Source: Bolinopsis microptera (taxonomy: Eukaryota > Ctenophora > Tentaculata > Lobata > Bolinopsidae). From it: 64,000 bases of DNA. The notes below the pieces were generated by a model, which saw only the letters and a program-made list of their open reading frames with translations, ran no database searches and had not been told where the DNA came from. How positions within the stretch are numbered: the stretch's first letter is position 1; the number at the start of each line of letters is the position of its first letter. The translations under genes were made by a program, and so were the position numbers. The stretch covers positions 6,668,169 through 6,732,168 of the forward strand of contig NC_087079.1 of assembly GCF_026151205.1 (NCBI RefSeq), read 5' to 3'. Below, piece by piece: positions 8,550 through 47,872 of this stretch.

Positions 8550-11500
8550 ATGAAATGGGTGATCCTCGCACTGTTTCTCATATTTTCTAAACTTGGCCGA
8601 ATCTCAAGCAGTCAGGCATCATCAAATCATGAGCTGGTTCATCACAGTGACTCTGAAGATGTTCACAACAACATCTTCAACACTTCTTCAGACCATTTGA
8701 GAGGACTCAAACCAGAGATTAGATTGAACAGAGTTGCTCTGACACTGAATCAGAGTTTAACGAGGAATGTGGACTACCCCTCGGTGCGGGTGTACAACGG
8801 AGATCCGGCCACAGTCGGCCATATTCCTTTCATTGTGAGTATCACTATGACAACAGTATTTTAAAAGAAAGATTTTTACTCAGTTCTCGGTAAAGCTAAA
8901 TCGTGAATCGGGTGAACCCTCTACACCTCTAAGTCGGTAGAAATCAGCGTTTTGATTCCCTCCTCACATTTCAAAATTTAGTATTAAACCTTGATGACTG
9001 TGTAAAATGTGTCTCTAAATAACGAGAACAATCGACTGGCAGGTCCGTATCTACACCTACAAGAGTGGTTACCGTTACATGTGTGGCGGGTCTATCCTGT
9101 CAGAGCACTGGGTAGTAACAGCAGCGCATTGCATCCTGGACCAGGCTCAATATGAGGGTACTAACCACTCTTTTACTATCCACGGCCCTAATATCCAGGT
9201 TAGTAGACTTGTCAAGGGTTGCAGGGTGTTATAACATAATGTAGTCATAATGTAGTCATAATGTAGTCATCAAGTAGTCATAAAGTAGTCATAATGTAGT
9301 CATAAAGTAGTCATAATGTAGTCATAATGTAGTCATAAAGTAGTCATAATGTAGTCATAAAGTAGTCATGATATAGTCATAATATAGTCATAACGTAGTC
9401 ATAATGTAGTCACAAAGTAGTCATAATGTAGTCATAAATTAGTCAAAAAGTAGTCATAATGAAGTCATAAAGTAGTCATAAGGTAGTCATAAAGTAGTCA
9501 TAAAGTAGTCATAATGTAATCATAATTTGTCATAATGTAGTCATAATGTAGTCATAATGTAGTCATAAAGTAGTCATAATGTAGTCATAATGTAGTCATA
9601 AATTAGTCATAATGTAGTCATAAAGTAGTCATAAAGTAGTCATAAAGTAGTCATAATGTAGTCATAAAGTAGTCATAATGTAGTTACCTTAGTTCCCAAA
9701 AATTTGTGTGCCATTATATTGAGCACAATTTATTTGAGCCCGAAAAATTTGGGCAGAAAATTTGAACTCATTTGGGCGACCGAAAATTTGGGCACAAATT
9801 CTTCGAAAAATGAACGATTTTCCACTAAAATTTTAGATAGATATTTGCCTTACGGGTAAATGCCTCACAGAATGGCTAGCCTCACAGAATGGCCAAATTT
9901 GTAAATGTTTTTGTAACTAATTTTTTATAAAAGACTGGTAGGTTTTGTGGATACCATATGAAACAAAAGTCTTCTGGCAACACTTCCTGTGGTGAAATCA
10001 TTAACTAGGACCACATTTTCTGGCATAAATATGACTGTTTATGTAGAAATTTTGAGCACTAAAAAATTTGTTTTCAAATTTTTGAACTAAGTTTACATTT
10101 TGGTGAGAACTTCTGGCACCAGTATGACAGAAGATGTTCAAAGAATAGTATTCATCAAAAAAAACGAACATTGTTCAATATAGGAAGAAAAAAATGCTAA
10201 AATGGCTACACGCCTCACAAAATGGCCAAAATATGCCTCACAAAATTTGTTTTCAAATTTTTGAACTAAGTTTGCATTTTGGTGAGAACTTCTGGCACCA
10301 GTATGACAGAAGATGTTTAAAGAATAGTATTCATCAAACAAAACGAACATTGTTCAATTTAGGAAGAAACAAAATAATAAAATGGCTAAACGCCTCACAA
10401 AATGGCCAAAATATGCCTCACAAAATGGCCAAAATTTGAAACTCCTTTTATTCAATGAAACCATAAGTCTAAAGTATTCACAAGCTATTTATTATACAAT
10501 AACACCCCAGATGGAGTGTTTTTACAGCCGAATGAAGGTTATAAATCATGAAATCAGGGAATATGAACAACGCCACACAAAATGGCCATTTTTGGTGTAG
10601 GAAATTATGCCCTTTTTATTCAGTTCTAAGAAATTTCACCTATATGGGGGTGTTAACAAGGCATATTAATACCAGCAGCATGCCTGAAACAAGAGCCAAA
10701 GGTTTTAGAAAAATAAAATTTTCTCGTTTTCTTTTTTTTTTGCCATTTTGTCAGGCATTTTTTCTTTTTTGTGAAATAATTTTTCACAGCTCAGTTTTTT
10801 CGTGAGTTTTAGGTTATTACCCCATTCCTTAATAGGTTTTCTAAGAACGTGTGGTGATAGAAATTTAAAAAGTATCTCCATCAACAAAATTATAGAAATT
10901 CAGATTTGGCCATTCTGTGAGGCATGTTTTTTTCGAGGAAGATTTTCCGGCCAATTTTTCTCAAAGAAAAAATGGTTATGAGATTAAATGAACCCCCGGG
11001 AAGAAAAATATGAGTGTCAACTTAGCTTCTTATGAGATAAAAACTGGAATAAAGTTTGTTTTGTGACTTTGAGAGACCTTCCTTTTTTTTGGCCATTCTG
11101 TGAGGCAAATACCCGTAGTTCATTATTATTCCTTATTATTCCAGTCATTTTGCTTTCAATTTTAAGCATGTAGGTGGTAGTCTGAGTTGTTTCACATTAT
11201 GAAATTGACGATCTGCCCAGTAACTACTAAAAAATACAGTGATGATGGCACAGTACAAAATGATAGATATACATTATACAATAGTGATATTTAGTCTCTC
11301 AATCAGATAGTTTAGTCTACTTACACTCAGCATATCTTATCATACCCCTTTCACATACAATTATCATTATGACGCCTCATCAGATGGTCGAAAGCTTTGG
11401 AAGAAAATTAGAAGGTTTACATCATGATCTATCAAACTAAGCGGCACATACGCTTAGCTTTGAGGTATCCGTACCTCTAACCATTTGTTTTATTAGTAGC

Positions 11501-14500
11501 TGTTAGCTATTCCAGTTATTTCTATTCATTTAAAATATAAGCCTTTTTACTTGGTCAAGCCATGAATGACAGATTAGAAAACTAAAATTTCAAATATTAT
11601 TTCACTTGGATATTTAAAAAAAGCCATCTTTCTATAGATTTCAGGGCCACAGGCCAAATGCAAAAAGTTTGGTTAGCAAAAAATTTAGCAGACGGAAAAG
11701 ATTTATGCAATTAATTTGGTCTGCAAAATATTTGGGCGAGAGGCCCGCTCAAATTTTTTGTCGCCCAAATTTTTGGGAATTAAGGTATAATGTAGTCACA
11801 AAGTAGTCATAATGTAGTCATAAAGTAGTCATAAAGTAGTCATAATGAAGTCATAAAGTAGTCATAAGGTAGTCATAAAGTAGTCATAAAGTAGTCATAA
11901 TTTAGTCATAATGTAGTCATAATGTAGTCATAATGTAGTCATAATGTAGTCATAAAGTAGTCAAAATGTAGTCATAGTGTAGTCATAACGAAGTCATAAT
12001 GTAGTCATAAAGTAGTCATAAAGTAGTCATAAGGTAGTCATAATGTAGTCATAATGTAGTCATAAAGTAGTCATAAAGTAGTCATAAAGTAGTCATAATG
12101 TTTTCATAAAGTAGTCATAATGTAGACATAAAGTAGTCATAATGTAGTCATAAAGTAGTCATAAAGTAGTCATAATGTAGTCATAATGTAGTCATAATGT
12201 AGTCATAATGTAGTCATTATTTAGTCATAGTGTAGTTATAATGTAGTCATAATATAGTCCGAGGAGTCCTCACTCTCCTCTCGGCCTAAGATGGCGTTTC
12301 TCGTCCTAAGATGGCGTTTCTCGTCCTATATATGATTTGGGGTTTAGGTTATTCCAGACTACAAAGGGTTTAGGGTATCTATTTACAATTTAAATATGAT
12401 TTATTTACAGACGTGTTAGGGAATTTAAAATTTACAGTTTACTGAGGCTTCTGTGGTATTTTATTTGTAAAAGTTCTCCCTTTTATAATATCTAAATTTT
12501 CTGTCTGTAATATTTGAAAACTAAATTTCAAATTGCTGGCCAAGTACTGACCATTATTATACTTAATAGATAATTGCGGGGGACGTTTCAACAAGATTGT
12601 ACGAAGCATCAACAGTTGTGAAATCTGTAACCCAAGTTTATACCCACGAAAACTACAACCAGTGGTATCTCCAGGTACGAAATACTAAACTTAGCCAGGG
12701 GTGCAGGGTCAAAGGGAAACCGACCAATCTCAATCATCAGTGGTACTGTCATCATTAGCGCCACTTGAAGCTAATAGTAAATTACTACACTGTGGTTATT
12801 GTAAGGAAAGACATATTACTAAAGGAGACGATGAGACATTACACAATACTCATTACACAATACAAATTACACAATACACATGCACCGTCAGTATAATCTA
12901 TCTGCTAACTAAAAAGAGAGTAACATGAAAAGAATGCAAATCTTTGAAACGCGTGGAAACTTTAAAGGTAATGTTGGAATAAAATATGAATTGTGAAGCC
13001 CAATCAGTGTACGACTGTCAACACTGGAAAACTTGATCTACTGTTAAATATACTTCAAAGTTCAAACCTTCACCAAATATTCTTTATTTTCACATATTCA
13101 TACCGAGTGCTATAGCAACGTTTATGGAAAGGGTTACTAATGATGAATGCGGTCGGTTTGTTTCTTTTGACCTTCTACTTAATCAGCATACTCCTCTTCA
13201 TGGCCTTCACGAGAATTGATCAGCAGTTGGTCATGAACAGCTACAATTAATATTACTGTCTGCTTATTCTGCAACAATTTCACTAAAAACCATTAAAAAG
13301 GGTCCCCTACTCTTTTGATACAATTGAGAAACCCGCCACAGCTGACAATAACGTTACCCAGAGTGACATAGCACTGGTGACAATAACATTACCCAGAGTG
13401 ACATAGCACTGTTGTACATAGAGGACGGGTTTGATCTAACTTCTGCCAACATAAAGAAAATCAGTGTAGCAGATTCTCAACCAGCTGCTGGCACTCAAGT
13501 AACTATTGCAGGTATGTGTAAATCTCCTGGCTCTCCAGTAACTATTGCAGGTATGTGTAAATCTCCTGGCACTTCTTTGGTAGCTTATCTAAGGGGGCTA
13601 TACCAAAACGAAACATTGGAATGTTTCCCGTGTCCAACAACGATCAGCATCAGTAATCATTGATGAATATTATAATGAATCGCTAAATCCTTCACTTTGT
13701 TCGGGTTACAGCGGCCCTCTTTGTGCAATAAACGTTGAAACATCTGGATACAACCAAGAAGAGCACTATACAATACTGTTTATAGAATACTAGCTGTTAA
13801 TACCTGTAATCTCACTGCAGGATGGGGCACTACAATACTGTTTATAGAATACTAGCTGTTAATACCTGTAATCTCACTGCAGGATGGGGCACTACAATAC
13901 TGTTTATAGAATACTAGCTGTTAATACCTGTAATCTCACTGCAGGATGGGGCACTACAATACTGTTTATAGAATACTAACTGTTAATACCTGTAATCTCA
14001 CTGCAGGATGGGGCACTATATAATACTGTTTATAGAATACTAGCTGTTTATACCTGTAACCTCACTGCAGGATGGGGCACTATATAATACTGTTTATAGA
14101 ATACTAGCTGTTAATACCTGTAATCTCACTGCAGGATGGGGCACTACAAAACTGTTTATAGAATACTAGCTGTTAATACCTGTAATCTCACTGCAGGATG
14201 GGGCACTACAATACTGTTTATAGAATACTAGCTGTTAATACCTGTAATATCACTGCAGGATGGGGCACTACAATACTGTTTATAGAATACTAGCTGTTTA
14301 TACCTGTAATCTCACTGCAGGATGGGGCACTATACAATACTGTTTATAGAATACTAGCTGTTAATACCTGTAATCTCACTGCAGGATGGGGCACTATACA
14401 ATACTGTTTATAGAATACTAGCTGTTAATACCTGTAATCTCACTGCAGGATGGGGCACTATATAATACTGTTTATAGAATACTAGCTGTTAATACCTGTA

Positions 14501-17500
14501 ACCTCACTGCAGGATGGGGCACTATATAATACTGTTTATAGAATACTAGCTGTTTATACCTGTAATCTCACTGCAGGATGGGGAACTACAATACTGTTTA
14601 TAGAATACTAGCTGTTAATACCTGTAACCTCACTGCAGGATGGGGCACTATATAATACTGTTTATAGAATACTAGCTGTTTATACCTGTAATCTCACTGC
14701 AGGATGGGGCACGCAGGAGACGGAACTGATAGCAACAGTGCTCCAGTTTGCTAACTACACCGTCCCTGATCAGAAATACTGTCAACAGATCTACCGTCGA
14801 AAAGGGTGATTACAAGTTCTACCTTGACCGAAAAAACTTTTGAGATTATCTGTTTGATCTAAAAGATCTCATTAAGTAGTTTTGCTAGTTGATAATGGTG
14901 ATAGATAATTCCTCACTTGATTAACTATCAGGTATTACATATTACCGGGGATGTTGTGTACAGGAGATGACGAGATGACATCTCACAGTGCTATAGGGGA
15001 CAGTGGGGGACCTGTTTTCAGGGACCATGGTAACGGCAACTTCACTCTGGTAAGAGATCCGGGCAGTTATTGTACGGGGATTTATGAGCATGGTTATATA
15101 TGGGATAATTAGTTTTATATTCGAAAAGATAAATAATTTCCACCCAGGTAATTGTTGATCAATTATTCAATCAATGGACCAATTCAATCCAGCTGGAATT
15201 TCAGTACGGTTTGGTGAGTTGGGGGGTTGGGAAGAATGTTGAAACTTACGATTACGATATCAACTCTGATGTGGCCTTTTACAATCAGTGGATATTCAAC
15301 ATCATGGTACGGTGTGAATTGTTCATTTGTTCATTGTGGATTTGATTTGATTAGCGAATTATCACCGTATTCCACCAAGTTCCAACTTAGTATCAGAATT
15401 GATCAGTCTGCTTTAACTGCCATGACCATAACAGTGGCGTAACGAAACTTAACTGAGGTACTAGCAAAAATGCGCGTTTTGCTCTGGAAACACACTTTTT
15501 AAAAGATTTTACCGGCGTATCCTCTAAAATCACCCAATTTGTTCAATTTTCGGGAGGGGCACCAAAAGGGGGCGCATTTTCGGCGGGGGGAGGCGCCAAC
15601 AGGCAACGTTACGCCACTGGACCATAACACGGTTTGTTTGGGCAGTAGGATATCAATACCATTTAACCAGTAACCAACCTGAACAACAATTTTGATACCT
15701 AAGATAGTTTATGAAAAACACTTATTGTAAATAATAATTTGATGAAGGAGTAACTGTAAAACTTCAGGAGTCATACAAACAGTACCGAGTGGAGTTGCAC
15801 GCTGACACCACCACAAAGTGGTTGTCGTGGAGAAGCGGGACTGATACTTTCAGGTACCAAGTCTACAATATCTCCTGTCAATCTGGTAGATTTGTTAATG
15901 TGAGTTGTGCTGAACAATAGAAAATTATGTAAAATAGCGTTGAATCTGTTGGAATAGACTATTAAAATAAATACGGTTATGTAAGAAACTTGGTTCATTT
16001 ACAGTTTGTGCAGTCCATGGGCACGTGCCTAGCTGAACAGGTTGTGATGCACAATAATTGTTCCTAATTAGAACTTTATAAGAAGCCTCGCGCGTTCACC
16101 AGTCAAATCTGCTCTCTAGATGCTGCTACGAGCAAGAGTAGGAGTATGATAATTATATGAGTATATGTAATATAACCAACTGTTCCCAGTATTCGCATAA
16201 CGTTACATTCCACCCTGCAGGTAGTGATCACAACACTGATTCTTTCACAAGACTTTAGTAATGTTATCGTTAGAGACGGTAACCAATACGACAGTCCAAT
16301 CCTTCTCGAGCAACATCGTGACCTGGCTGAAAACCAAACTCTTAGTAAGTTTAGCTTTTGTCAAACACAAGAAAAATGCTTCGATTTTAACTCAAATATG
16401 GTACTGTAGTAGTAAACCCGCGATGGGGTGGCATGTGCCTCAATAAAAATATTACAATCATTTATTATTATATCAATTTATCGTTAAATATTTCAAAAAT
16501 ATTAATAACGTATGGTTGATCCTTCACACTTGGTAAAATATATAAAAATAAAGTTAATCTACACTAAAGAATAAATAATCTATATTATATAAATCAACAA
16601 TATTAACTCCCCATCTTCTTGTAGTCATTTATCAAAGCGGTAGAAATCCAAGTAATTTTAGTACGCGGTGCGCAAGGAATTTCGTTTTTAAAAAATGTGT
16701 AGGCAAGATAAGCCTAAGTGTGGCAGTGAAAATTGAAAAATAAGTTGCAGAATAAATTGCAGTGTCTGACTGTCAAATGCATTATCGCAGTTCATTTATT
16801 TGACTGCACTAACGTTTAGGATTCTTACAGCTGTTATATTTTGCTAATATTTTGTTTAAAAGTTGTAAAGGACAAAGTTCTTGTCCGTCCACGAAAGGTT
16901 TTCTAGGTCAAGTTTTTGTTTGTCCTGTAAGTAACGTACAATGTTGTCCTTGTATGAATGAATAAACTTATCTTGTAGCTTAGGTACGTTGAAGGGAAGG
17001 ATTTTGTTTATTTCGTTTATCGTGTTGTTATATAATCGTGGTCCTACGTTAGAGATGCTATAATCGGTGATCCGTAATCTGTTGAACTTAATTTCAAAAT
17101 ACTTTGGATTTCTCCTTTCCGTTTGTCTAAGCGGTGATTTTTCAAATATACTACAGATACTCGATGGTGCTACTCCCATATAAACCTTGTGCATCAAAGT
17201 TAGACAGCTTTTAGCAATGAGATTAGGAAGAGCTAAAATTCCTATTTTGTTGAAGATGGATTTTGTGTGAGATGGTAGTTTACGTTTTTCTTTGTCGTAA
17301 AAATAGTTATGATATTCTGAATCAGTGGCGCGAATAGCTTTCTTTTGAGCAGAGAATAAAGACTGAATAGAATTTAAAGATTTAGTACCCCAAACAGTAG
17401 CGCAGTAATACAGGTGAGATTGAATTAAACTATTGTATAGCATTTACAATAGTACTGGGAAAGCGTCATTACCACTTTTTCCTCATAAATCACTATTTAT

Positions 17501-20632: not shown

Positions 20633-23600
20633 ATGATGAATGTTAAATCACAGATTCGACTGACTCTAATATTGATTGCAGGTATGTTTCTGCTTAAAAA
20701 TGTTATGATTTGCTTGTTCTAATTACAATTAGCAGGATTCACAAATCTAACCTTTGATTTTAACCAATTCTATGACCCTTCTATGTCCCAACTTTATTCC
20801 TTGCAATGACCCTCACTCTATATCGTTAATCTTTAATAATGACAAATCTTAAAATATTGAGATGCATCTTTAAAAAATTCGAAACTGTAGTCAGAGTCGC
20901 ATATTACACTAAAATATCCACGCAGCTGTCGCTGTCGCTAAAGGGAGTGGTCAGGACTCTTGCGGTTCTGGAACCTTCTTTAACGGAGGGAACTGTGAGG
21001 ATTGCCCCAAGGGTCAGTACCAGGTAAAACATTGCAGTTTGAGGCAATTTTGTGGGGTTTTTTTGCTATTCAATGTTACTTGAATCTGGAGCATCGTTTC
21101 ATTGGAACAATGTTACTTTGTTCGTCAAATTATTTAAACTTGATTAAAACGTTTTGAGATATTATTCTTTTTCGATCCAATAAAATTGGATGAGTTGATC
21201 GCAACTGTTGTTACGACTCAGGCTGTAGTTATAAAGTTATAACCATGTTCCAACTGCCATATCATAAAGTAAAAGTCCACTCTTTCAGCCAGACAGTGGT
21301 CAAACGAGTTGTTTTAATTGTAAAAAAGGAACACACCAACATTTACCGGGACAGACAAGTAAATTTACTGTAGAACACTCTGATAATGAGTTCAGCAAGT
21401 CATCTTTGCTTTTATAACTTAGCTTATATCTTTCAAGTCTGGATCTTTTTCGTTTCTATCTCATCATTTGAACAATTAAGGTGCAAATGCTGTAAGTTTT
21501 AAAGTTAATAGAATTGTTTTTGTTTTAATGATGAAGGTCTGAGATTAAGATTGTTATTATTGTTGTTTGTAATTTAAGATTCCTCGACAATTCTCTTATG
21601 TTTTGATGAATTGAAATTTATGGCGATCGTTTAATCCTTATCTCATCTAATTCCGCACCATTTATACGGTATAAAATCTAACACCTACTCAGAGTCGGTT
21701 ATACGTTGCTTTAGTAACCACGAACTTTGTCTCCTCTCACTAGGCTGTAACGATTGTCCGGTGGGTTGGATGGCTGGAGCTGAGGGATTGAAGGCCTGCT
21801 CAGAATGTCCTCCAGGTACGATCATAACACAATTAATGCTTACGTCATCAGGGTTGCTTACGTCATCAGGGTTGCTTACGTCATCAGGGTTGCTTACGTC
21901 ATCAGGGTTGCTTACGTCATCAGGGTTGGCATTGCTATTTAAGCTTGTCAACTAGTAAGCGGTTCCTTCTTGTTTTCTTCTTTTGACAATTTCCGAGATG
22001 TAATTTGCATTTAATTCTTTGAATAAAACAGTTTGATAACGCACGTATTACAAAATAATAACAACATACATTGGTAGGCACGCACTCAAATAATACTAAA
22101 GCAGTAGATTGTCCTGGATGTGAACCTGGTACTTACAACAACTCTACTGGAAAAGAAAGTTGCGACCTTTGTCCACGTGGAAAATACCAGGTACTATTAG
22201 TATTAGAGTATTAGCTTATTAGTAAAATAAACCATTCTTTTTTCTCTACAAATACGACACTTTCTGTACAAAACTTCATCAAGCCTGCGATATTGACATT
22301 CGCGCGATTTTCAAAGCTACATCTTCATCAAGCGATTGTTCCATTTCCGTTTAACGACAAAGTTATAGTTCATTAAACACGCAAGCACATTCCTACCACA
22401 ATGTATAATAACCATGGTAACATTCCTACCATAATGATCACCTAATTCCTCAGGTAACCTAAAGTAACCTAAAGTAACCTAAAGTAACCTAAAGTAACCT
22501 AAAGTAACCTAAAGTAACCTAAAGTAACCTAAAGTAACCTAAAGTAACCTAAAGTAACCTAAAGTAACCTAAAGTAACCTAAAGTAACCTAAAGTAACCT
22601 AAAGTAACCTAAAGTAACCTAAAGTAACCTAAAGTAACCTAAAGTAACCTAAAGTAACCTAAAGTAACCTAAAGTAACCTAAAGTAACCTAAAGTAACCT
22701 AAAGTAACCTAAAGTAACCTAAAGTAACCTAAAGTAACCTAAAGTAACCTAAAGTAACCTAAAGTAACCTAAAGTAACCTAAAGTAACCTAAAGTAACCT
22801 AAAGTAACCTAAAGTAACCTAAAGTAACCTAAAGTAACCTAAAGTAACCTAAAGTAACCTAAAGTAACCTAAAGTAACCTAAAGTAACCTAAAGTAACCT
22901 AAAGTAACCTAAAGTAACCTAAAGTAACCTAAAGTAACCTAAAGTAACCTAAAGTAACCTAAAGTAACCTAAAGTAACCTAAAGTAACCTAAAGTAACCT
23001 AAAGTAACCTAAAGTAACCTAAAGTAACCTAAAGTAACCTAAAGTAACCTAAAGTAACCTAAAGTAACCTAAAGTAACCTAAAGTAACCTAAAGTAACCT
23101 AAAGTAAGTATCTTCCCCAGGACAATACAGATGAGGTGGAGTGTAAGAGATGCCCTGATGGGCAATATAACGACCAGGAAGGTAAAGCATCCTGTAAACC
23201 CTGTTCTTGGACTCTAAGTGCTGACCGTTCTACTTGCTACTGCCCACCAGGTTTATTTGGTTAACCTTCATAGTAGGATCCCAATTTCAACAAAAATTCA
23301 TTCTTTATCATGTTAATCTATTATCTTTTGAATGATTTTATTTGACATACTAGATTCTTAGCAACCTGAGAAATCTGAAAATATCGTCAATCCAGGTACC
23401 TACAAAGACGGATCAGTTTGTTCGTACTGTCCACCAGGAACCTACCAAAACAGGACTGACGCAGACAGATGTGTGAGCTGCCCGGCTGGCTATTACCAGC
23501 AGTCTAATACTTCAGTACAGTGTGAGCCATGTGGTCAGGGCAGTCACCAGATGAAAAGTGGGGAGGTCACCTGTTTGGATTGTGGGCTGGGGTTCTATCA

Positions 23601-30338: not shown

Positions 30339-31414
30339 CTGGTCAACGGTTTCTGGCCTCCTACTTTAAGAGGGAGGTCTTATCACCGTGCCCACAGAAT
30401 GCAACTCCTGCTAGCTGCACGCCAGGACTCCCAGGACTACCATTTAGCTAACCACTAACGTTTGAATTACCAAAAAAAAAGATCGGAGCAACAAAGTTAA
30501 TTATGGGCATGACCCAGGGGCTACGTTCAATATTCGCTCTCCAGTGCAAGGGTATCTTCGCTTCTGAAGGTCCTAAAGACTTCTTGGTGAACTTGAACGA
30601 ACCCGAATTTGCATATTTATAGACAAGTTATCGATAAACATCTGGAACATCTAAGTTCTACTCGATGTGAATACCTAGTGAGTTGAGATGGTCTGAGATG
30701 TTCAGAACGACCCTGGAGTTAAAAATGGTGCTTTTAAGCACCATTCCTGTATTGTTACCATGTAACGTCGAGCTAACATGAAGTTGAATCCAAATTTTGC
30801 GTAATGCATTCCTTAAAAGTTGAATATATGTCCTATTTGCATCCACGAAGAGTTCCCATTGTATTGTTGTTTATTCCTGGTCCGGTTAGCTTTGCGTCTC
30901 AGAACTAAAGAGGTCCGCTATGCTTTAATGAGTTATACTGTCCACCAGGGTACTGTTCATCTAAGTGTTCCCCTTGTAATGGGACAGTCTGTGATAAAGC
31001 TTCTCTGCAGGATGTCTGAGATGAACTGTTTTCGAGCGTTGAGATCTTCCGCTGTAGAAACTGATTAGAACCAGGGTGTCAGTAAAACTCTGCTGCTACT
31101 AGATGATTGTAGAGCGTCCAGTCACACTTCGATGAATAAATTGGCAAAGCTGACCCGGTCCCCTAGTCCTAGGTTAAATGTGATGGCCTCAAGATGAGCT
31201 CTTTTTGCGTTAGCTGTCTAGCTGAGAAGACCTGAAAAGTGGTTACTGGAAGAAGAAGTGCCAGGAATTCTCGCTATCAGTGTGTCCTCGTAGTCAGAGT
31301 GAGAGAGTTGAAATCCCTAACTCTGTCTTATCACGAGCCTGTTTCTAGCGTGTTTCAGCCCTTGTGCATTAGCTGTCTTAACTGAAAAGACCTGTCTTAA
31401 CTGAAAAGACCTGT
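30336..31414. other. unassigned sequence before the 32-bp array
   Basis: Less AT-rich than its surroundings. Both strands have several short frames broken by stops; it could be a badly decayed retroelement, but I recognise no domain. An 18-base unit (CTTAACTGAAAAGACCTG) is duplicated at 31377-31413 at the edge of the array. Confidence 0.35.
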
Positions 31415-33370
31415 TGTGTAACAAGCCTGAAGTCCTCAGGTAACATTGTGTTACAGACCTGAATTCCTCAGGTAACGTTGTGTTACAGGCCTGAAGTCCT
31501 CAAGTAACGTTGTGCTGCAAGCCTGAAGTCCTCAGGTAACGTTGTGTTACAAGCCTGAAGTCCTCAGGTAACGTTGTGATACAAGCCTGAAGTCCTCAGG
31601 TAACGTTGTGTTACAAGCCTGAAGTCCTCAGGTAACGTTGTGTTACAAGCCTGAAGTCCTCAGGTAACGTTGTGTTACAAGCCTGAAGTTCTCAAGTAAC
31701 GTTGTGTTACAGGCCTGAAGTCCTCAGGTAACGTTGTGTTACAAGCCTGAAGTCCTCAGGTAACATTGTGTTACAGGCCTGAAGTCCTCAGGTAACGTTG
31801 TGTTACAAGCCTAAGGTCATCAGGTAACGTTGTGTTATAAGCCTAAGGTCATCAGGTAACGTTGTGTTACAATCCTGAAGTCCTCAGGTAACGTTGTGTT
31901 ACAGGCCTGAAGTCCTCAGGTAACATTGTGTTACAAGCCTAAGGTCATCAGGTAACGTTGTGTTACAAGCCTAAGGTCATCAGGTAACGTTGTGTTACAA
32001 GCCTGAAGTCCCCATGTAACGCTGTGTTACAAGCCTGAAGTCCTCAGGTTACATTGTGTTACAAGCCTAAGGTCATCAGGTAACGTTGTGTTACAAGCCT
32101 AAGGTCATCAGGTAACGTTGTGTTACAAGCCTGAAGTCCTCAGGTAACATTGTGTTACAAGCCTGAAGTCCTCAGGTAACGTTGTGTTACAAGCCTGAAG
32201 TCCTCAGGTAACGTTGTGTTACAGGCCTGAAGTCATCAGGTAACGTTGTGTTACAAGCCTGAAGTCCTCAGGTAACGTTGTGTTACAGGCCTGAAGTCAT
32301 CAGGTAACGTTGTGTTACAGGCCTGAAGTCATCAGGTAACTTTGTGTTACAGGCCTGAAGTCATCAGGTAACGTTGTGTTACAGGCCTGAAGTCCTCAGG
32401 TAACGTTGTGTTACAAGCCTGAAGTCCTCAGGTAACGTTGTGTTACAGGCCTGAAGTCCTCAAGTAACGTTGTGTTACAAGCCTGAAGTCCTCAGGTAAC
32501 GTTGTGTTACAAGCCTAAGGTCATCGGGTAACGTTGTGATACAAGCCTGAAGTCCTCAGGTAACGCTGTGTTACAAGCCTGAAGTCCTCAGGTAACGTTG
32601 TGTTACAGGCCTCAAGTCCTCAGGTAACGTTGTGTTACAAGCCTGAAGTCCTCAGGTAACGTTGTGTTACAGGCCTGAAGTCCTCAAGTAACGTTGTGTT
32701 ACAAGCCTGAAGTCCTCAGGTAACGTTGTGTTACAAGCCTAAGGTCATCAGGTAACGTTGTGATACAAGCCTGAAGTCCTCAGGTAACGCTGTGTTACAA
32801 GCCTGAAGTCCTCAGGTAACGTTGTGTTACAGGCCTGAAGTCCTCAAGTAACCCTGTGTTACAGGCCTGAAGTCCTCAGGTAACGTTGTGCTACAAGCCT
32901 GAAGTCCTCAGGTAACGTTGTGTTACAAGCCTGAAGTCATCAGGTAACGTTGTGTTACAAGCCTGAAGTCCTCAGGTAACGTTGTGTTACAAGCCTGAAG
33001 TCCTCAGGTAACGTTGTGTGACAAGCCTAAGGTCATCAGGTAACGTTGTGTTACAGGCCTGAAGTCCTCAGGTAACATTGTGTTACAAGCCTGAAGTCCT
33101 CAGGTAACGTTGTGTTACAAGCCCGAAGTCCCCATGTAACGTTGTGTTACAGGCCTGAAGTCCTCAGGTAACGTTGTGTTACAAGCCTGAAGTCCTCAGG
33201 TAACGTGTGATACAAGCCTGAAGTCCCCATGTAACGTTGTGTTACAGGCCTGAAGTCCCCATGTAACGTTGTGTTACAAGCCTGAAGTCCTCAGGTAACG
33301 TTGTGTTACAAGCCTGAAGTCCTCAGGTAACGTTGTGTTACAAGCCTGAAGTCCTCAGATAACACTGTCT
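31415..33370. repeat. 32-bp minisatellite (about 60 copies)
   Basis: Main unit CCTGAAGTCCTCAGG then TAACGTTGTGTTACAAG. Each unit contains two small inverted repeats: CCTGA-AGTCC-TCAGG and TAAC-GTTGT-GTTA. A common variant reads CCTAAGGTCATCAGG, which breaks the first stem. Other variants are ACAGG for ACAAG and CCCCATG for CTCAGG. Variants are interspersed, as after unequal exchange or gene conversion. Confidence 0.95.
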
Positions 33371-35995: not shown

Positions 35996-36510
35996 TCACA
36001 GTGCTGGCAAGCACGACCGTTGCATTTATTGTGGGTATACTATGTTCCCCATTTACTATTATACCCCCTTTACTATTATACCCCCTTTACTATTATACCC
36101 CCTTTGGTACACGTTACAAGCCTCTTTTGTGCACGCGAAGCGTGCACTCCGGCCTCCGGCAGTAGTTTTCCAGGCATTAAGACTCATCGGAAGTCGTTAA
36201 GCAGAATTATTTTTAGTTCAAAACATTCTAATTTGATGTCAAAGATGACAGGAATAAAAAATAGTTATGTTGAGATTTTTAAGAAATTTGCATAAAATAC
36301 TCGCCAGCACTGTTATACGAAATTCGGTAAAAAACCCAAAATCGCCATATTCAGGTGCCTTTAAAACCATGTTAAAATTGAGTTAGAGATCTGAAATTTT
36401 TCAGGGCGTCTAGACGTTGATCAAATCGACTGCAAAAAAAGTTTCAGGTTTCAGGAGTATCGGGAAATGGGTTTTCTAGAACCCCTGTTTTACGACAGAT
36501 TGTCGTGATA
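35996..36510. repeat. repeat block A (outside copy)
   Basis: About 515 bp starting TCACAGTGCTGGC and ending TTGTCGTGATA, followed by a TA microsatellite. It holds a 17-base unit (TTTACTATTATACCCCC) in about three copies. An inverted copy (38089-38586) lies in the centre of the large palindrome. Part of it is bounded by CAGTGCTGGC and GCCAGCACTG, which may be an element's own termini. Open frames within it, on either strand, are repeat-derived. Confidence 0.7.
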
Positions 36511-36531
36511 TATATATATATATATATATAT

Positions 36532-38068
36532 ATTTTACCAAAACCCATAATCATGGGTAGAGTGGACCGCTGTCAGTGTCTCTCTTTCCCAAACAAAAGG
36601 AAATGATATTACTTTGATTGACCGTTCTCAAATGCAAAATGATACCGAGAATGAAATCGGTCGCTCGCTTTTCCCATTCATTCACGGCTTACGAATTGTA
36701 ATAAGTTTCGATTGATTACATCAATCAGATGCTGTAAAAATCTCTTTGGGTTGCGTTCGGGTCGATACCTAGTATTTCGGGGTAAGGGTGGTAGTTATTA
36801 GTATTACTTATTGAATTAGCTGAAGTTTATTGAATCTTCATTGCCGAGTACAGCTGCCTTTGGGTAGTTTTTCTTAATCTATTACAATTGTAAATGAATG
36901 GGAAAAGCGAGCGACCGATTTCATTCTCGGTATCATTTTGCATTTGAGAACGGTCAATCAAAGTAATATCATTTCCTTTTGTTTGGGAAAGAGAGACACT
37001 GACAGCGGTCCACTCTACCCATGATTATGGGTTTTGGTAAAATATCATCTCTTTTTGATTATAATGTCAGGGTACTTTATAAAGTCGAAATATAAACTGA
37101 TATCTTCATTAATAAGGAGGAAGTTTCAACGATTTCGAAATCTATCCTTTAAAAACATTTCCTTGTGTTTAGGGAAGCATATCGGTCGATCACTGACTGA
37201 ATATGCCACTTAATACTCATTCAAGTTGGCATTAAATTCATATATAATGACATTAAACTGTCGTGGCAAAGCAGAATTTGTTGGAAATCACGAATGAGCA
37301 AAATTCTCACCTTTCGCACGTGCAAACTTTGAGCAGACGTTGCGTGCGCATCCAATATTGAATCGCCGTAAATTTTTGCATGTAATTGTTTTATATATAG
37401 CTTGATAAGCATGCAAAGTTTCAAAGTATTTTAAGAAGAACTGTAATCACAACGGCACTCTAAAGTTGACAGAAAATGACGAAAACAGCAATTTTCAGTG
37501 ATTTTAGCGATTTTCTATCAATTTGGGCGTGTCCCAACGTGTGCAACTTTTCGATTTTCAACTTTAAAACTAGCCTATGACACAATTTATACCTATAGGA
37601 AGCAGAACTGAGCTCCACAACCCAAGGCATGGCCCAACACCAGAGAATACTAAATCGCAAAATTGACGTTTTTATAAAATAATTCTTCAAAAAAGCACAA
37701 ACTTCAATGACGAATATCTTTATGAAGGAGCAAGCTAGAAAAACTTTCCGGTAGATTTTCAGAATGCTTGAACAATTATCTAAGATGAAAATTTCCTCAG
37801 ATTTTGAATAAAATTACTCCTTAATGGTTTAAAATTAATTTTAAAAGTTATTACTTTGTCAAAAATCAAGTTTTAAAAACGGTTAACTTGATGACGTCAT
37901 CAAGGGGTGTTTATGACGTCAAATAATTTGTTTATACAATGTAAACTAAAGTGTAAACAATTATTTGCAAGACCTGTGGTCGGAAATGCCTTTATCTTTT
38001 ATACTTTTGAATCTATGGACAATTAAATACAGGCTACAATTGACTGGCAAAGCGTCTATCCCTGAATA
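36532..38068. repeat. large inverted repeat, left arm
   Basis: About 1.54 kb, nearly identical in reverse complement to 38593-40126. The outer 0.5 kb (36532-37044) is itself an element with about 165-bp inverted termini starting TTTTACCAAAACCCATA; its central part is unique. The inner 1.0 kb carries TGACGTCATCAAGGGGTG-type sequence. No protein family is recognised. Confidence 0.85.
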
Positions 38069-38592
38069 TATATATATATGTATATATGTATCACGACAAT
38101 CTATCGTAAAACAGGGGTTCTAGAAAACCCACTTCCCGATGCTCCTGAAACCTGAAACTTTTTTTGCAGTCGATTTGGTCAACGTCTAGACGCCCTGAAA
38201 AATTTCAGATCTCTAACTCAATTTTAACATGGTTTTAAAGGCACCTGAATATGGCGATTTTGGGTTTTTTACCGAATTTCGTATAACAGTGCTGGCGAGT
38301 ATTTTATGCAAATTTCTTAAAAATCTCAACATAACTATTTTTTATTCCTGTCATCTTTGACATCAAATTAGAATGTTTTGAACTAAAAATAAATCTGCTG
38401 AACGACTTCCGATGAGTCTTAATGCCTGAAAAACGCCTCCGGCCGGAGTGCACGCTTCGCGTGCACGAAAGAGGCTTGTAACGTGTAGGTACCAAAGGGG
38501 GTATAATAGTAAAGGGGGTATAATAGTAAAGGGGGTACATAGTATACCCACAATAAATGCACCGGTCGTGCTTGCCAGCACTGTGACATACA
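38069..38592. repeat. palindrome centre: inverted copy of block A
   Basis: Short TATATG tract, then the reverse complement of block A (38089-38586). It has one 17-base unit fewer than the outside copy and scattered substitutions. Confidence 0.8.
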
Positions 38593-40126
38593 TATTCAGG
38601 GATAGACGCTTTGCCAGTCAATTGTAGCCTGTATTTAATTGTCCATAGATTCAAAAGTATAAAAGATAAAGGCATTTCCGACCACAGGTCTTGCAAATAA
38701 TTGTTTACACTTTAGTTTACATTGTATAAACAAATTATTTGACGTCATAAACACCCCTTGATGACGTCATCAAGTTAACCGTTTTTAAAACTTGATTTTT
38801 GACAAAGTAATAACTTTTAAAATTAATTTTAAACCATTAAGGAGTAATTTTATTCAAAATCTGAGGAGATTTTCATCTTAGATAATTGTTCAAGCATTCT
38901 GAAAATCTACCGGTAAGTTTTTCTAGCTTGCTCCTTCATAAAGATATTCGTCATTGAAGTTTGTGCTTTTTTGAAGAATTATTTTATAAAAACGTCAATT
39001 TTGCGATTTAGTATTCTCTGGTGTTGGGCCATGCCTTGAGTTGAGGAGCTCAGTTCTGCTTCCTATAGGTATAAATTGTGCATTAGGCTTGTTTTGAAGT
39101 TGAAAATCGAAACGTTACACACGTGGGGACACGCCCAAATTGATAGAAAATTGCTAAAATCACTGAAAATTGCTGTTTTCGTCATTTTCTGTCAACTTTT
39201 GAGTGCCGTTGTGATTACAGTTCTTCTTGAAATACTTTGAAACTTTGCATGCTTATCAAGCTATATATAAAACAATTACATGAAAAAATTTACGGCGATT
39301 CAATATTGGATGCGCACGCAACGTCCGCTCAAAGTTTGCACGTGCGAAAGGTGAGAATTTTGCTCATTCGTGATTTCCAACAAATTCTGCTTTGCCACGA
39401 CATTTAATGTCATTATATATGAATTTAATGCCAACTTGAATGAGTATTAGGTGGCATATTCAGTCAGTGATCGACCGATATGCTTACCTAAACACAAGGA
39501 AATGTTTTTAAAGGAAAATTTCGAAATCGTTGAAACTTCCTCCTTATTAATTAATGAAGATATCAGTTTATATTTCGACTTTATAAAGTACCCTGACATT
39601 ATAATCAAAAAGAGATGATATTTTACCAAAACCCATATTCATGGGTAGAGTGGACCGCTGCCAGTGTCTCTCTTTCCCAAACAAAAGGAAATGATATTAA
39701 TTTGATTGACCGTTCTCAAATGCAAAATGATACCGAGAATGAAATCGGTCGCTCGCTTTTCCCATTCATTTACAATTGTAATAGATTAAGAAGATCTACC
39801 CAAAGGCAGCTGTACTCGGCAATAAAGATTCAATAAACTTCAGCTAATTCAATAAGCAATAACTACTACCCTTACCCCGAAATACTAGGTATCGATCCGA
39901 ACGCAACCCAAAGAGATTTTTACAGCATCTGACTGATGTAATCAATCGAAATTTATTACAATTCGTAAGCCGTGAATGAATGGAAAAAGCGAGCGACCGA
40001 TTTCATTCTCGGTATCATTTTGCATTTGAGAACGGTCAATCAAATTAATATCATTTCCTTTTGTTTGGGAAAGAGAGACACTGGCAGCGGTCCACTCTAC
40101 CCATGAATATGGGTTTTGGTAAAATT
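38593..40126. repeat. large inverted repeat, right arm
   Basis: Reverse complement of the left arm, including the complete 0.5-kb TIR element (about 39622-40126, internal part inverted relative to the left copy). Substitutions are scattered along the arm. Confidence 0.85.
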
Positions 40127-41637: not shown

Positions 41638-44600
41638 ATGACAATGTTCCACGAGATACAGAACCTGTTCTCATTCGGAACACTACGTCTATCGGAGAAC
41701 TCTCAGACTCAGCTGGTACGAGAACTACCATCTAGATCTAAAAGTCCCGACTTTGATCACGATAACTGCCAGATCTTCATGGAGCCGAGCAGGTCGAGGC
41801 GGCAACTGATGGGAGGGGCTGTGCATACCAAACAGAGACACATGCGAGAGTCAGTGATAAGCCTGATCGGTCATCAGCCTGGTATGGCAACTAGTTGTGG
41901 CAATGATCACAATTTAGGTAAGCCTTGATTAATCATATTTATCGTGTACAAAGTACAAACCAATTAAAAAGTATTATTATATACTTTATGATTTCTTCAT
42001 TTTTGGTCATTTATTAAATTACAATTTTTTTACACAATTTACTCTAATTCTAAATGATTCTAAATATTGAGCAATCCATGTGTTCATTTGACCCAACATC
42101 GCACATATTTATCATCTAAAGATCTAATCAAGGAGGATTAGTCAACACTGTCTTTCATAAATACCAACTTGACAATGCGAAGAGACACCCAATCCCATAT
42201 TAAATTATCATGAAATTATAAAATGAACTTATCATAACATTATTTATCATAAATTATCATATTATGAAATTATTGTATTATTAAATCATAATACTATTTA
42301 TTATGAAATTATGATGTAATGAAACTGCCATATAGTGCTTTAAGGCATTAACTGAAATCCCAGATCATTAAATACAAACCGTTATAAATTTAAGGTTCTG
42401 ACCTTCCTACTACCTAATGTCCTTATTGGTAAACACATGATGCGGCATAACAGTAAGTTTTAAAAGTCAGTCTATATGGTAACCGTTTAATATTAATAAG
42501 ATGTAGAAAATAGTCGGCTCACCTCATGATATGAAAAAAAGTATGTTGAAACTTAAATGGCAACGTGGCTAGAATTTATTAGTGAATTCAACATTTATTG
42601 GACTTGATACCAAGATGAAATTAGAAAAGGAAAAGGATTCAGACAGCAGTAGCTGCAACTTAAACTTACCAATCTTCAGATTTTCCCAGTACGATAAGCG
42701 AAACTCTTTCCTTAAACCAAGTATCGACAACAACGGAAGTTGCTGGAGCAGGAAAATCGCATTCAGAAAAAAAGATACTTATCAACGTATCCGGGAGAAA
42801 GTTTTTAATTTATCGCAGCTATTTGGAAAGGTACTAAAACTGTTATGAAAATATGAAAACTTTAACTGTTTCCATTCTAACTAGATACTGCTGCATACTT
42901 GTTACTTTTGTTTTTGGAGTAATAGCTTTAAAGTCAACTTGACTCAAACTGTAGAGTAATCGGAAATGGACCAATCAAAAATATCGAACTCTGATGATAT
43001 CCCAAAAATATTAATATTGGTAAATAACTAGCCTGATGATCAGGTACCCAAAGACGCTGCTCGGATCGGCTGACCTAGATAAACACTACGACACACATTA
43101 CGGGGACTACTTCTTCGACACAAACCAGGAGGCCTTTGAGAGTATCTTTGATTTTTACCTCTACGGAAAACTCTACCAACCAGCGTCTATACCCAGCGAA
43201 ATGTTTGAGGTAAACAAAGAGGGTGTGCTTAATTTGGATGCTGCATTATTGCAACTCTTCACAATTTTAATAGGTAAGGTAAGTATATTACTCGTTTGTC
43301 TAAGTTGCTTCTCAATCTCAATTGTAAACGCTTTAACACGCTTATTATGAACACTGTCTTCAGGATTCGTTAGAATATTTCCGGATGGTGTCTGTGATTA
43401 AAGAAGCTGAAGCTCAAGAAAAACAAAAGGAGAAAAGCAAGGTACACTCACATACAATTGCAAAGACTTGCTTAGGGCGAATCAGACAGCAAATTGATAA
43501 TGCATTTAAAAATCCCAGCTGCAGCAAAGCTGGTCTTATCTATGGATGGGTTGACATCGCTTGTATCATCCTTTCAATCATACTTATGATCAGTGAGACT
43601 GACCCTAAAATAGATGTAATGTTAATGGACAAAACTTTGAAAATCACTAAAATATGGGCTTCTTTGGAATTGGCAACAATCATCTTTTTTACATTTGACG
43701 TCCTACTAAGATTCGTAGTAACCTACGGAAAGTTCGAATTTGTCAAAAGCCCAGGGACATGGCTGGACCTCTTCACAATTCTCCCTTTCTTCCTCGAGGT
43801 ACTTGTAGATGTAGCGCATTTTGGGTCGATAAAAGTTTTGAGAGTAGCCAGGATCGCCCGAATCTTGAAACTGATTAAGAGGAACAAAAGATTATTGCTG
43901 ATGGTGACTGTTCTGTCAAGATCTATGGGTGAGCTGAGCATGCTGTTTATTGTGTGGAGTATGTGTATTGTTGTGGCTGGGATGAGCCTCTACTTCATCG
44001 AGGAAACGGACAATTCTGCAGATATCAAATCAGGTAAATTAGTAATGTCACCATTCGTGATATTGTAACGCGGTTAAATTTTAAGATTTTAATTCCAGTT
44101 TAATTCTAGTTTAATTCCAGTTTAATTCCAGTTTAATTCCATTCTCTTTTATAGCGCAGTTATTTGTTTTGCTCTACGTGGGCCGATTTAATTTCTTAAA
44201 TGGGAACGTGCTGCTACACAGCTACATGTTTAATACATGTCATTATATTTTACTCTTAACCAAACTTATGTTTTTATAAAATTTGATATATTTAAGTTTC
44301 TTATTAATATTTATTTTTACGTATCACTATTGTGGCTGACGGAGCTGGAAAATCTTAACCCTGTCAAACTGGTTGTATACCCTGTTTACTGGATTTTTTT
44401 GTGAGAAGTTGATTAAACATTAAATATTTATTCTCAGGGTTTCACGGCATTTGGTGGGCTGTAGTTACTTTAAGCACTGTCGGATACGGTGATATAGTAC
44501 CTGTAAGTATGTATTTATACTTATTTCTGATAATTTATTACTGTTAAAAAACCTTTAAAAATACTTACGTGGTGAATTACCGATGAATGAGCTAATATAC

Positions 44601-44920
44601 ACACATGCGTAAATAATATATATATATATACACATATACATATACAATATACATACATAATATGTTCATATCTCATTTCCCAGAATTCAACGCAAGGCAA
44701 GCTGTTCGGGTCCGTGTTTGTGTACGTAAGCATGATCTTCATGGCTCTGCCTTTAACAATCATTGTGGGGGCATTCAGCAAACAATATGAGTCAAAAACG
44801 TGCCTGAAATTGAAAGAAACTCAATCAGAAGCAGACCTCAATCTTCGAGTTGAAAATGAAGCAGACCTCAATCTTCGAGTTGAAAATGAGCAGCTGATGG
44901 AAGTGATCATTCAAGTTTAG
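41638..44920 (+). CDS. Shaker-type voltage-gated K+ channel (6 exons)
   Basis: Exons: 41638-41917, 42680-42830, 43044-43209, 43364-44033, 44438-44502, 44684-44920; about 522 residues. The T1/BTB tetramerisation domain starts at ILINVSGRKFLIYRSYLE (about 127-143) and continues YPKTLLGSADLD. Then come S1 (256-277), S2 with TFDVLLRF (298-318), S3 (322-340), S4 with VLRVARIARILKLIKR (357-372), S5, the selectivity filter TVGYGD (about 436-441) and S6. Predicted role: a tetrameric delayed-rectifier or A-type K+ channel subunit. Oddities: the T1 segment between EMF and DSLEYFR is about 11 residues shorter than in Kv1. An alternative in-frame donor at 43279 would insert 23 unrelated codons. The S6 hinge reads ALPLTIIV instead of PVP. 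A 10-residue tail segment (ADLNLRVENE) is duplicated. The first exon has no family match, so its start is least certain. Confidence 0.85.
44814..44888 (+). repeat. in-frame 30-bp tandem duplication in Kv C-terminus
   Basis: Two consecutive copies of GCAGACCTCAATCTTCGAGT plus TGAAAATGA(A/G), differing at one base. They encode ADLNLRVENE twice near the end of the Kv protein; the duplication keeps the frame. Confidence 0.9.
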
Positions 44921-46565: not shown

Positions 46566-47872
46566 CTACTTACAACAAGACGTTATAATGATGTCAACGT
46601 TCCAGTAGTTAATACTGCGTGAACAGCCACTATTGCACCCTATACTGCTGTCTCCAAATGTCACTGCTTTTGTATACCCGTTATTAGCGTATGTCCAAAT
46701 AGCCTTAGACCACCCCTGATACCTTGTGAATCCCTCGGGGCAACTACCCCCACTTCCTAGTATACAATAAGATCCCTCTGGCCAAGAGATTTCCTCAACC
46801 TTCGCTAAAACGTCGCTTATTTCGGAACTGGTATCTGTTTTCACTCCTGCTATTGTCTGCTTTAATTCGATCTCCAAACTTTTCATATCTGTTTTGGTAT
46901 CGTTTTTATACGAAGCTATATCAGTCAATTTTACTTTCAGCTCCTCAATGTCCGTTTTCGTTCCGTTGATGGTCTTATTTCGTTCCACTTCTAGAATCTC
47001 GATCTTAGCATAAAGATCGCTAGAGTTCCTTTTCTGGTGTGCTTGCTCCTCTTCTAAAATCTCGATCTTAGCAGAAAGATCGCTCCTCAGTCCCGCAATT
47101 ACTTTCCTAGTTCCATTTATGGTCTTATTTTGTTCCACTTCTAAAACCTCGATCTTAGCATAAAGATCGCTCCTCAGTCCCGCAATTACCTTTCTAGTCC
47201 CATTTATGGTCTTATTTTGTTCCACTTCTAAAATCTCGATCTTAGCAGAAAGATCGCTAGAGTTCCTTTTCTGGTCTGCTTGCTCCTCTTCTAAAATCTC
47301 GATCTTAGCAGAAAGATCGTTCCTCAGTCCCTCAATTTCCGTTTTAGTTTCATTAAGGTTATCATATTCTTCAATCTTGCCCTCTAGCTTGTTGATTGTG
47401 CTCAGTAACTTCTTATTTTCTGCCTTTGATTCGTCTAGCTCGGTCCTAATGGCGACTATCTTATCTGCTTGGTCTGTCACTAGTTGCGTAAGTCGGGCGT
47501 TACTGAGTATACTCGATGCTAATAATATGTCCTGAAGAATGTCATGTTTTAATACATCTCTTGCAGATAAAATGCAAAATAATACTCAGTACCCATAAAC
47601 TTAAATGTAAAGTTTGTTTTTGTGTTGGGCGGGAAATCATCTGTTGTTCAGAAAAACAAAAATTCCACTATCAACTTATGTGTATCAGCATAAGTTTGCG
47701 TTATTCTATGAAAGTATGAATATGATACCGGATACAAATTCAACAATTTCAACTGTAAAATCCTACTATAAATTACTCACCGACTCTGCTGACGTCTGAG
47801 AGCTTTTACTCCTCCGAATAGAGCGGACAGAATAAGAATAACACAGGAAAGTACATTGGCATTGATACCCAT
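46566..47872 (-). CDS. secreted coiled-coil protein with ApeC-like C-terminal domain (2 exons)
   Basis: Exons (minus strand) 47781-47872 and 46566-47559, about 361 residues. Exon 1 encodes a signal peptide (MGINANVLSCVILILSALFG). The second exon joins in phase at CTGCAAG|A and continues DVLKHDILQDILLASSILSN. Residues about 45-285 are a long coiled coil with repeated DLSAKIEILEEEQ / NKTINGTRKVIAGLRSDL units, probably grown by internal duplication. The C-terminal 74 residues begin WPEGSYCILGSGGSCPEGF and end TSCCK. This WP.G.YC...GG.CP.GF...CC pattern resembles the ApeC (apextrin C-terminal) domain, found in secreted or matrix proteins and in some cases binding bacterial glycans. Assignment to ApeC is by eye. 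The N.T sequons in the coil suggest glycosylation, consistent with secretion. The stop codon abuts a minisatellite. Confidence 0.8.

Follow-up and report, generated by a model that had tools for sequence, protein, structure and literature searches.

A minisatellite across an intron-exon boundary multiplies a splice acceptor in a ctenophore trypsin-like protease gene

We describe a minisatellite that repeats one splice acceptor fifteen times in a trypsin-like serine protease gene of the ctenophore Bolinopsis microptera. It lies in a 64,000-nucleotide stretch of assembly GCF_026151205.1 (contig NC_087079.1, positions 6,668,169 to 6,732,168 of the forward strand; hereafter the window), in which G+C content runs from 0.32 to 0.44 in 2-kb steps. 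Only the acceptor nearest to exon 5 keeps the predicted protein open, and two paralogous trypsins carry still larger arrays. With a probability of about 0.75, we infer that the window array is tolerated because splicing connects exon 4 mainly to the exon-proximal, 15th acceptor.

Results

The array occupies 13763..14712 on the forward strand and consists of 15 units of 62 or 64 bp. Tandem Repeats Finder (TRF) gives it a period of 64, 15.1 copies, 95% matches and a score of 1690, so chance origin is not an issue. An earlier note on this DNA had proposed that a minisatellite here multiplies a functional 3′ splice site about 15 times; the site is a plausible acceptor, and exact CTGCAG/GATGGGG (the slash marks the splice junction) is indeed present in 15/15 units, with first exonic bases from 13821 to 14703. 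It gave a unit length of 61-64 bp, but the actual spacing between acceptors is only ever 62 (7/14) or 64 (7/14). Each unit contains a candidate branch region (read by eye), a pyrimidine tract and the acceptor, and it spans the exon-intron boundary, taking in the end of intron 4 and the first 10 bases of exon 5: CTGCAG is followed by GATGGGGCAC (GATGGGGAAC in one unit), the sequence with which that exon begins. The units differ by individual variants arranged in different orders, and a genome search with a single unit returned 15 matches, all at the protease locus. The tetranucleotide GCAC at the left edge of the array (13763..13766, forward strand) recurs at its exon-side edge (14709-14712), which fits a 4-bp microhomology of the presumed first duplication.

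The gene that hosts the array is, as far as its translation indicates, an intact trypsin-like serine protease gene. Our model covers its first eight exons, without the 3′ end, at 8550..15899 on the forward strand (8550-8834, 9043-9198, 12570-12674, 13397-13511, 14703-14805, 14932-15049, 15148-15306 and 15768-15899); these join in a single frame that is open over 391 codons, of which exon 5 and the later exons supply 171, and are separated by GT-AG introns. The translation matches Pfam Trypsin (PF00089) with E 1.9e-38 over profile positions 2-220 of 220, and a search of the PDB returned trypsins, the best being mite allergen Der p 3 (1.4e-20). It contains TAAHC, SDIALL and GDSGG, which we take to be the His, Asp and Ser motifs of the catalytic triad. 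The earlier note placed the copied acceptor at the first bases of a Gly-Trp-Gly exon of a protease and named the span 13397-14805. Both agree with the model, in which exon 4 (13397..13511, SDIALLYIEDG...TIAG, with the Asp102 motif) is followed by exon 5 (14703..14805, GWGTQETEL...), which starts at the 15th acceptor and runs for 103 nt to the donor GG/GTGATT.

When the sequence past each acceptor is read with the phase of exon 4, acceptors 1-14 meet a stop after 11 codons (7/14), 5 codons (5/14) or 9 codons (2/14). The 15th alone keeps the frame, reading GWGTQETELIATVLQFANYTVPDQKYCQQIYRRK up to the end of exon 5. The earlier note was thus right that only the last acceptor leads to full-length protein and that the others stop within about 12 codons, but it named TAG alone, whereas TAA is met as well. 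A score matrix trained on 21 other anchored acceptors assigns 7.13 to 11/15 sites, the last included, 6.95 to one and 5.63 to three. The best donor-like site within the array scores 2.83, against 4.95 for the exon 5 donor. Over the first 60 nt downstream, purine and G+C fractions are 0.58 and 0.55 after the last acceptor; for the first internal copy, the sole one compared, the corresponding values are 0.48 and 0.38. RNA structure was considered as a selector of the last acceptor and rejected: all 15 sites are predicted to be paired alike, with probabilities of being unpaired of 0.001-0.058 against a mean of 0.238 across all positions. Because the acceptor hexamer CTGCAG is palindromic, adjacent units of the array can pair in RNA.

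Counting this array, three splice sites of the window gene are copied. A 35-bp tandem duplication (13343..13411, forward strand), recognised by TRF and the exon model, doubles the exon 4 acceptor, with first exonic bases at 13362 and 13397, and the upstream copy runs into a stop. The same two sources place a 39-bp tandem duplication at 13488..13573 (forward strand), which doubles the exon 4 donor, with last exonic bases at 13511 and 13550, each reading CAG/GTATGT.

Searching the genome with the Pfam trypsin model gave 47 matches, many of them fragments of one gene, and ten gene copies were fetched, a non-random choice of loci with multiple exon fragments. Two of these, paralogs A and B, are near-identical trypsins on C10, at C10:17164000-17169500 and C10:17271900-17274300, whose intron 1 is mostly filled by a 44-bp unit ending in TGTCAG/GTACGT. 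Paralog A has 123 units with 119 AG/GT acceptor sites, and B has 53 units with 49. Among the exact 44-bp acceptors of A, 102/103 stop after 9 codons and the last one opens the TAAHC exon; in B, 43/44 run into a stop, which comes after 9 codons in 41 cases and after 17 and 38 codons in the other two, and the frame past the last remains open. A second array, with a 48-bp unit and the junction ACAG/AGAG, lies at the acceptor of the GDSGGP exon, where A has 7 copies and B has 2; in A the frame likewise singles out the last copy. Copy numbers therefore differ between these genes, 119 versus 49 and 7 versus 2, in a comparison of paralogs rather than alleles. The repeat tables of the other eight fetched copies hold no comparable acceptor array.

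Judging by their coding differences, A and B are under strong purifying selection. Over 370 codons, mostly downstream of the 44-bp array, they differ by 24.8 synonymous and 10.2 nonsynonymous changes, a ratio of nonsynonymous to synonymous rates (dN/dS) of 0.11 (Fisher P 3e-10); in each stretch compared a single stop codon lies at the upstream edge, ahead of the coding part of exon 1. Given this selection, the spliceosome probably manages to pass over dozens of near-perfect decoys.

We also considered, and rejected, the idea that duplication is targeted to splice sites. In a self-match test of +/-12 bp around 46 anchored junctions in six genes (the window gene, A, L031, L032, L034 and L039, leaving out paralog B and loci L037, L038, L040 and L041), duplicated junctions numbered 5/46, three in the window gene and two in A, compared with 88/690 control positions. 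There is no enrichment (Fisher P 1.0), with controls taken 30-150 bp away and some of them inside arrays, which raises the control rate. Arrays at or near a donor occur in three trypsin copies (39 bp x 2 in L031, 14 bp x 17 in L034 and 15 bp x 65 in L038); the 5′-side arrays of L031 and L034 fail this strict test, and L038 lies outside it. The L038 array (1024-2000; C10:3735300-3737300) starts at an apparent donor behind a GWG exon of that trypsin copy and reaches the end of the fetched stretch.

A wider scan of ab initio exons covered 264 kb, made up of the window, a neighbouring 100 kb of C8 and 100 kb from arbitrary places on C1. At a score of at least 20 it recovered 99 exons versus 3 in decoys, and at a score of at least 24 a self-match of at least 0.8 was found at 4/108 junctions versus 13/216 control positions. 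Window exons 4 and 5 are not among the exons tested, so the scan yields no genome-wide prevalence figure. The four self-matching junctions comprise one in a gelsolin-like gene, one in a coding repeat and two that are unconfirmed. The gelsolin-like locus carries a 26-bp array (L030, 1039-1394; C1:5041039-5041394, reverse strand) with 13 copies of CACTATCAG/G (TTCACTATCAG/G or CCACTATCAG/G) directly before or at the start of an exon that matches Gelsolin at E 1e-4; its neighbours reach 4.9e-11 and 8.3e-8. A strong-looking CCCTTCAG sits at the far edge, and at least two upstream copies continue in frame into the exon. This array may be partly coding, and we count it as a candidate only. A similar array lies close to it at about C1:5042225-5042524.

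Several further features were observed. In intron 2 of the protease gene, an 11-bp minisatellite (CATAATGTAGT; 9235-12259) flanks a 2.1-kb stretch on both sides. This stretch is edged by 36-nt inverted repeats (9685-9720 and 11752-11787, 81% complementary) and looks like a transposon-like element inserted into the 11-bp array. The other window arrays that were inspected lie within introns (21837-21928, 22454-23107 and 44088-44141), and no exon was recognised beside the one at 31413-33363. The array at 22454-23107, in a gene with ephrin-receptor-like repeats, is a perfect 10-bp repeat (GTAACCTAAA x 65, 100% matches) that stops 14 bp short of an apparent acceptor. Nested long inverted repeats at 35996-39199 (612 nt, 98%; 370 nt, 98%; 156 nt, 99% complementary) suggest a recent palindromic rearrangement or a mobile element. 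A potassium-channel-like gene has, close to its 3′ end, an in-frame 30-bp duplication (44828-44893) that encodes EADLNLRVEN twice. An 87-bp coding repeat (47043-47258) falls in a reverse-strand open frame that, in its C-terminal part, is similar to the apextrin ApeC domain at a level below the Pfam cut-off. An ionotropic glutamate receptor gene 100 kb from the window has as its best PDB match the Mnemiopsis protein ML032222a.

Discussion

The simplest account of the sequences is that these arrays are tolerated by-products of tandem duplication, common in the trypsin genes examined, a reading to which the lack of junction enrichment leads. In the window gene, a segment across the intron 4/exon 5 boundary would have been tandemly duplicated, apparently between the two GCAC tetranucleotides, and ordinary minisatellite turnover would then have expanded it to 15 copies. 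Exon definition is the likely reason why the last acceptor would be used: it would pair over 103 nt with the donor of exon 5, helped by the true exonic sequence that follows it and has no counterpart at the other copies, and the upstream copies would remain inside the intron. Some leakage to upstream acceptors, producing early-stop messages, is likely, and would not be selected for. Wherever the frame discriminates among copies (at window exon 5, at the acceptor of exon 4 and in both arrays of the two paralogs), the copy closest to the exon is the workable one. The earlier note had left two outcomes side by side, dependable use of the last site or truncated transcripts and targets of nonsense-mediated decay (NMD). 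The constraint on A and B and the amphioxus cases discussed below favour dependable use of the last site, and not truncated or decayed messages as the main outcome.

Several observations weigh against this account. The last window acceptor is not intrinsically stronger, since ten other copies share its score, and predicted RNA structure does not set it apart from the other 14. Acceptors 14 and 13 would give exons of no more than 167 and 229 nt. Both sizes are ordinary for exons, and length by itself may therefore not exclude these sites. Both exon 4 donor copies are in frame, the second of which would add 13 residues. In the candidate gelsolin-like array the reading frame gives the last copy no special status, as 9/12 upstream copies are open over the 80 codons translated. 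The dN/dS value comes from paralogs A and B rather than from the window gene; the latter has no close paralog in the genome, where its exon 4-5 protein matches only its own two exons, so selection on it is not measurable.

This last point also bears on the idea that the locus is turning into a pseudogene, with most transcripts truncated or decayed. Three of its splice sites are disturbed by duplications, but the 391 codons are open with all three catalytic motifs kept, and paralogs with larger arrays are constrained, which makes a damaged gene unlikely. The earlier note suggested that copy number could act as a dial on protease output. In such a case upstream acceptors would be used substantially and create NMD targets, so that more copies mean less protease, under selection. 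That 14/15 acceptors lead to early stops, ten of the 14 tying with the last in score, and that copy number has changed fast between A and B would suit such a dial. Strong copy-number control is, however, expected to forbid a dN/dS of 0.11 at both 119 and 49 sites, duplication is not enriched at junctions, and normal splicing is reported for amphioxus arrays (PMC3087553, PMC3902484); the dial is therefore unsupported, and we consider it very unlikely, although a mild effect of copy number on output is possible. We give an equally small chance to the broader proposal that acceptor satellites form an active regulatory layer, in which the spliceosome would sample tandem acceptors by competition or, in the CAG/GTACGT arrays, by stepwise recursive splicing; if true, fast-changing array length would tune the productive share of the protease message. 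As an explanation in its own right, recursive (ratchet) splicing, in which units are joined in turn and respliced until the last, draws on the 44-bp units of A and B, whose CAG/GTACGT offers an acceptor and donor-like sequence at once. The window array (CAG/GATGGG) and the 48-bp array have no donor at the junction, so this mechanism cannot be general and is extremely improbable. It is just as improbable that the copies are absent from the animal and arose in assembly. Tandem arrays are hard to assemble, and one amphioxus array was misassembled in a draft genome (PMC3087553), but the window units carry individual variants in differing orders, similar arrays occur in A and B, and PacBio libraries are described for Bolinopsis (PMC10232365).

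The closest known counterparts to these arrays are the mirages of amphioxus, in which an exon-intron boundary, on the 3′ or the 5′ side, is tandemly duplicated in the manner of a minisatellite and the splice signals are copied with it. They are reported from the globin genes BflGb6 and BflGb9 and from Adh3, TnC and PGBD5, without interference with regular splicing and with normal mRNA (PMC3087553, PMC3902484). Like BflGb6, in which the 3′ end of an intron and the 5′ part of an exon are copied, the window array spans an acceptor boundary, and splice signals are copied in 15/15 units. BflGb6 has 6 units on one haplotype and 3 on the other, each of 150-160 bp, compared with 15 units here and about 119 and 49 sites in the paralogs. 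Unlike the amphioxus mirages, the present arrays belong to a ctenophore and are known from genome sequence alone. They are of the kind called mirage in amphioxus. The differing copy numbers of A and B hint at length instability between alleles, a further mirage feature, and the dN/dS of the paralogs lends indirect support to regular mRNA splicing.

Human CBS offers two further comparisons. A 31-bp variable number tandem repeat in this gene spans an exon-intron boundary on the donor side, as opposed to the acceptor side here. Its alleles are associated with reduced enzyme activity, according to the title of a cited paper. In CBS 844ins68, the distal copy of a duplicated junction is reported to be favoured (PMC2630376), a preference that we count in favour of last-acceptor use in the window gene; it differs in being a human polymorphism with a single extra copy, whose splicing was measured in work cited by that paper. 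The C. elegans intronic minisatellite CeRep25B is found near alternative splicing regions and linked with multiple splicing decisions, but it is a dispersed family with regulatory motifs, and its abstract does not mention a copied splice site (PMC4039745).

Literature searches that included ctenophores, made among openly licensed PubMed Central papers, brought up none that, judged by title and the start of the abstract, seemed to concern such arrays; by searches of the same literature, what appears to be new is their occurrence in a ctenophore and their size. Boundary-spanning minisatellites are thereby extended from amphioxus to a ctenophore, a member of a lineage for which a sister position to all other animals has been proposed (PMC10232365), and, in genes still under selection, the near-identical acceptors of an array number up to about 119. 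Since RNA-seq and Iso-Seq reads of Bolinopsis have been described (PMC10232365), the question of acceptor use is directly answerable. The arrays amount to a natural experiment on splice-site choice in a setting where the sequence of the site itself gives no guidance, and the prediction is that proximity to the exon and exonic context would decide the choice of acceptor.

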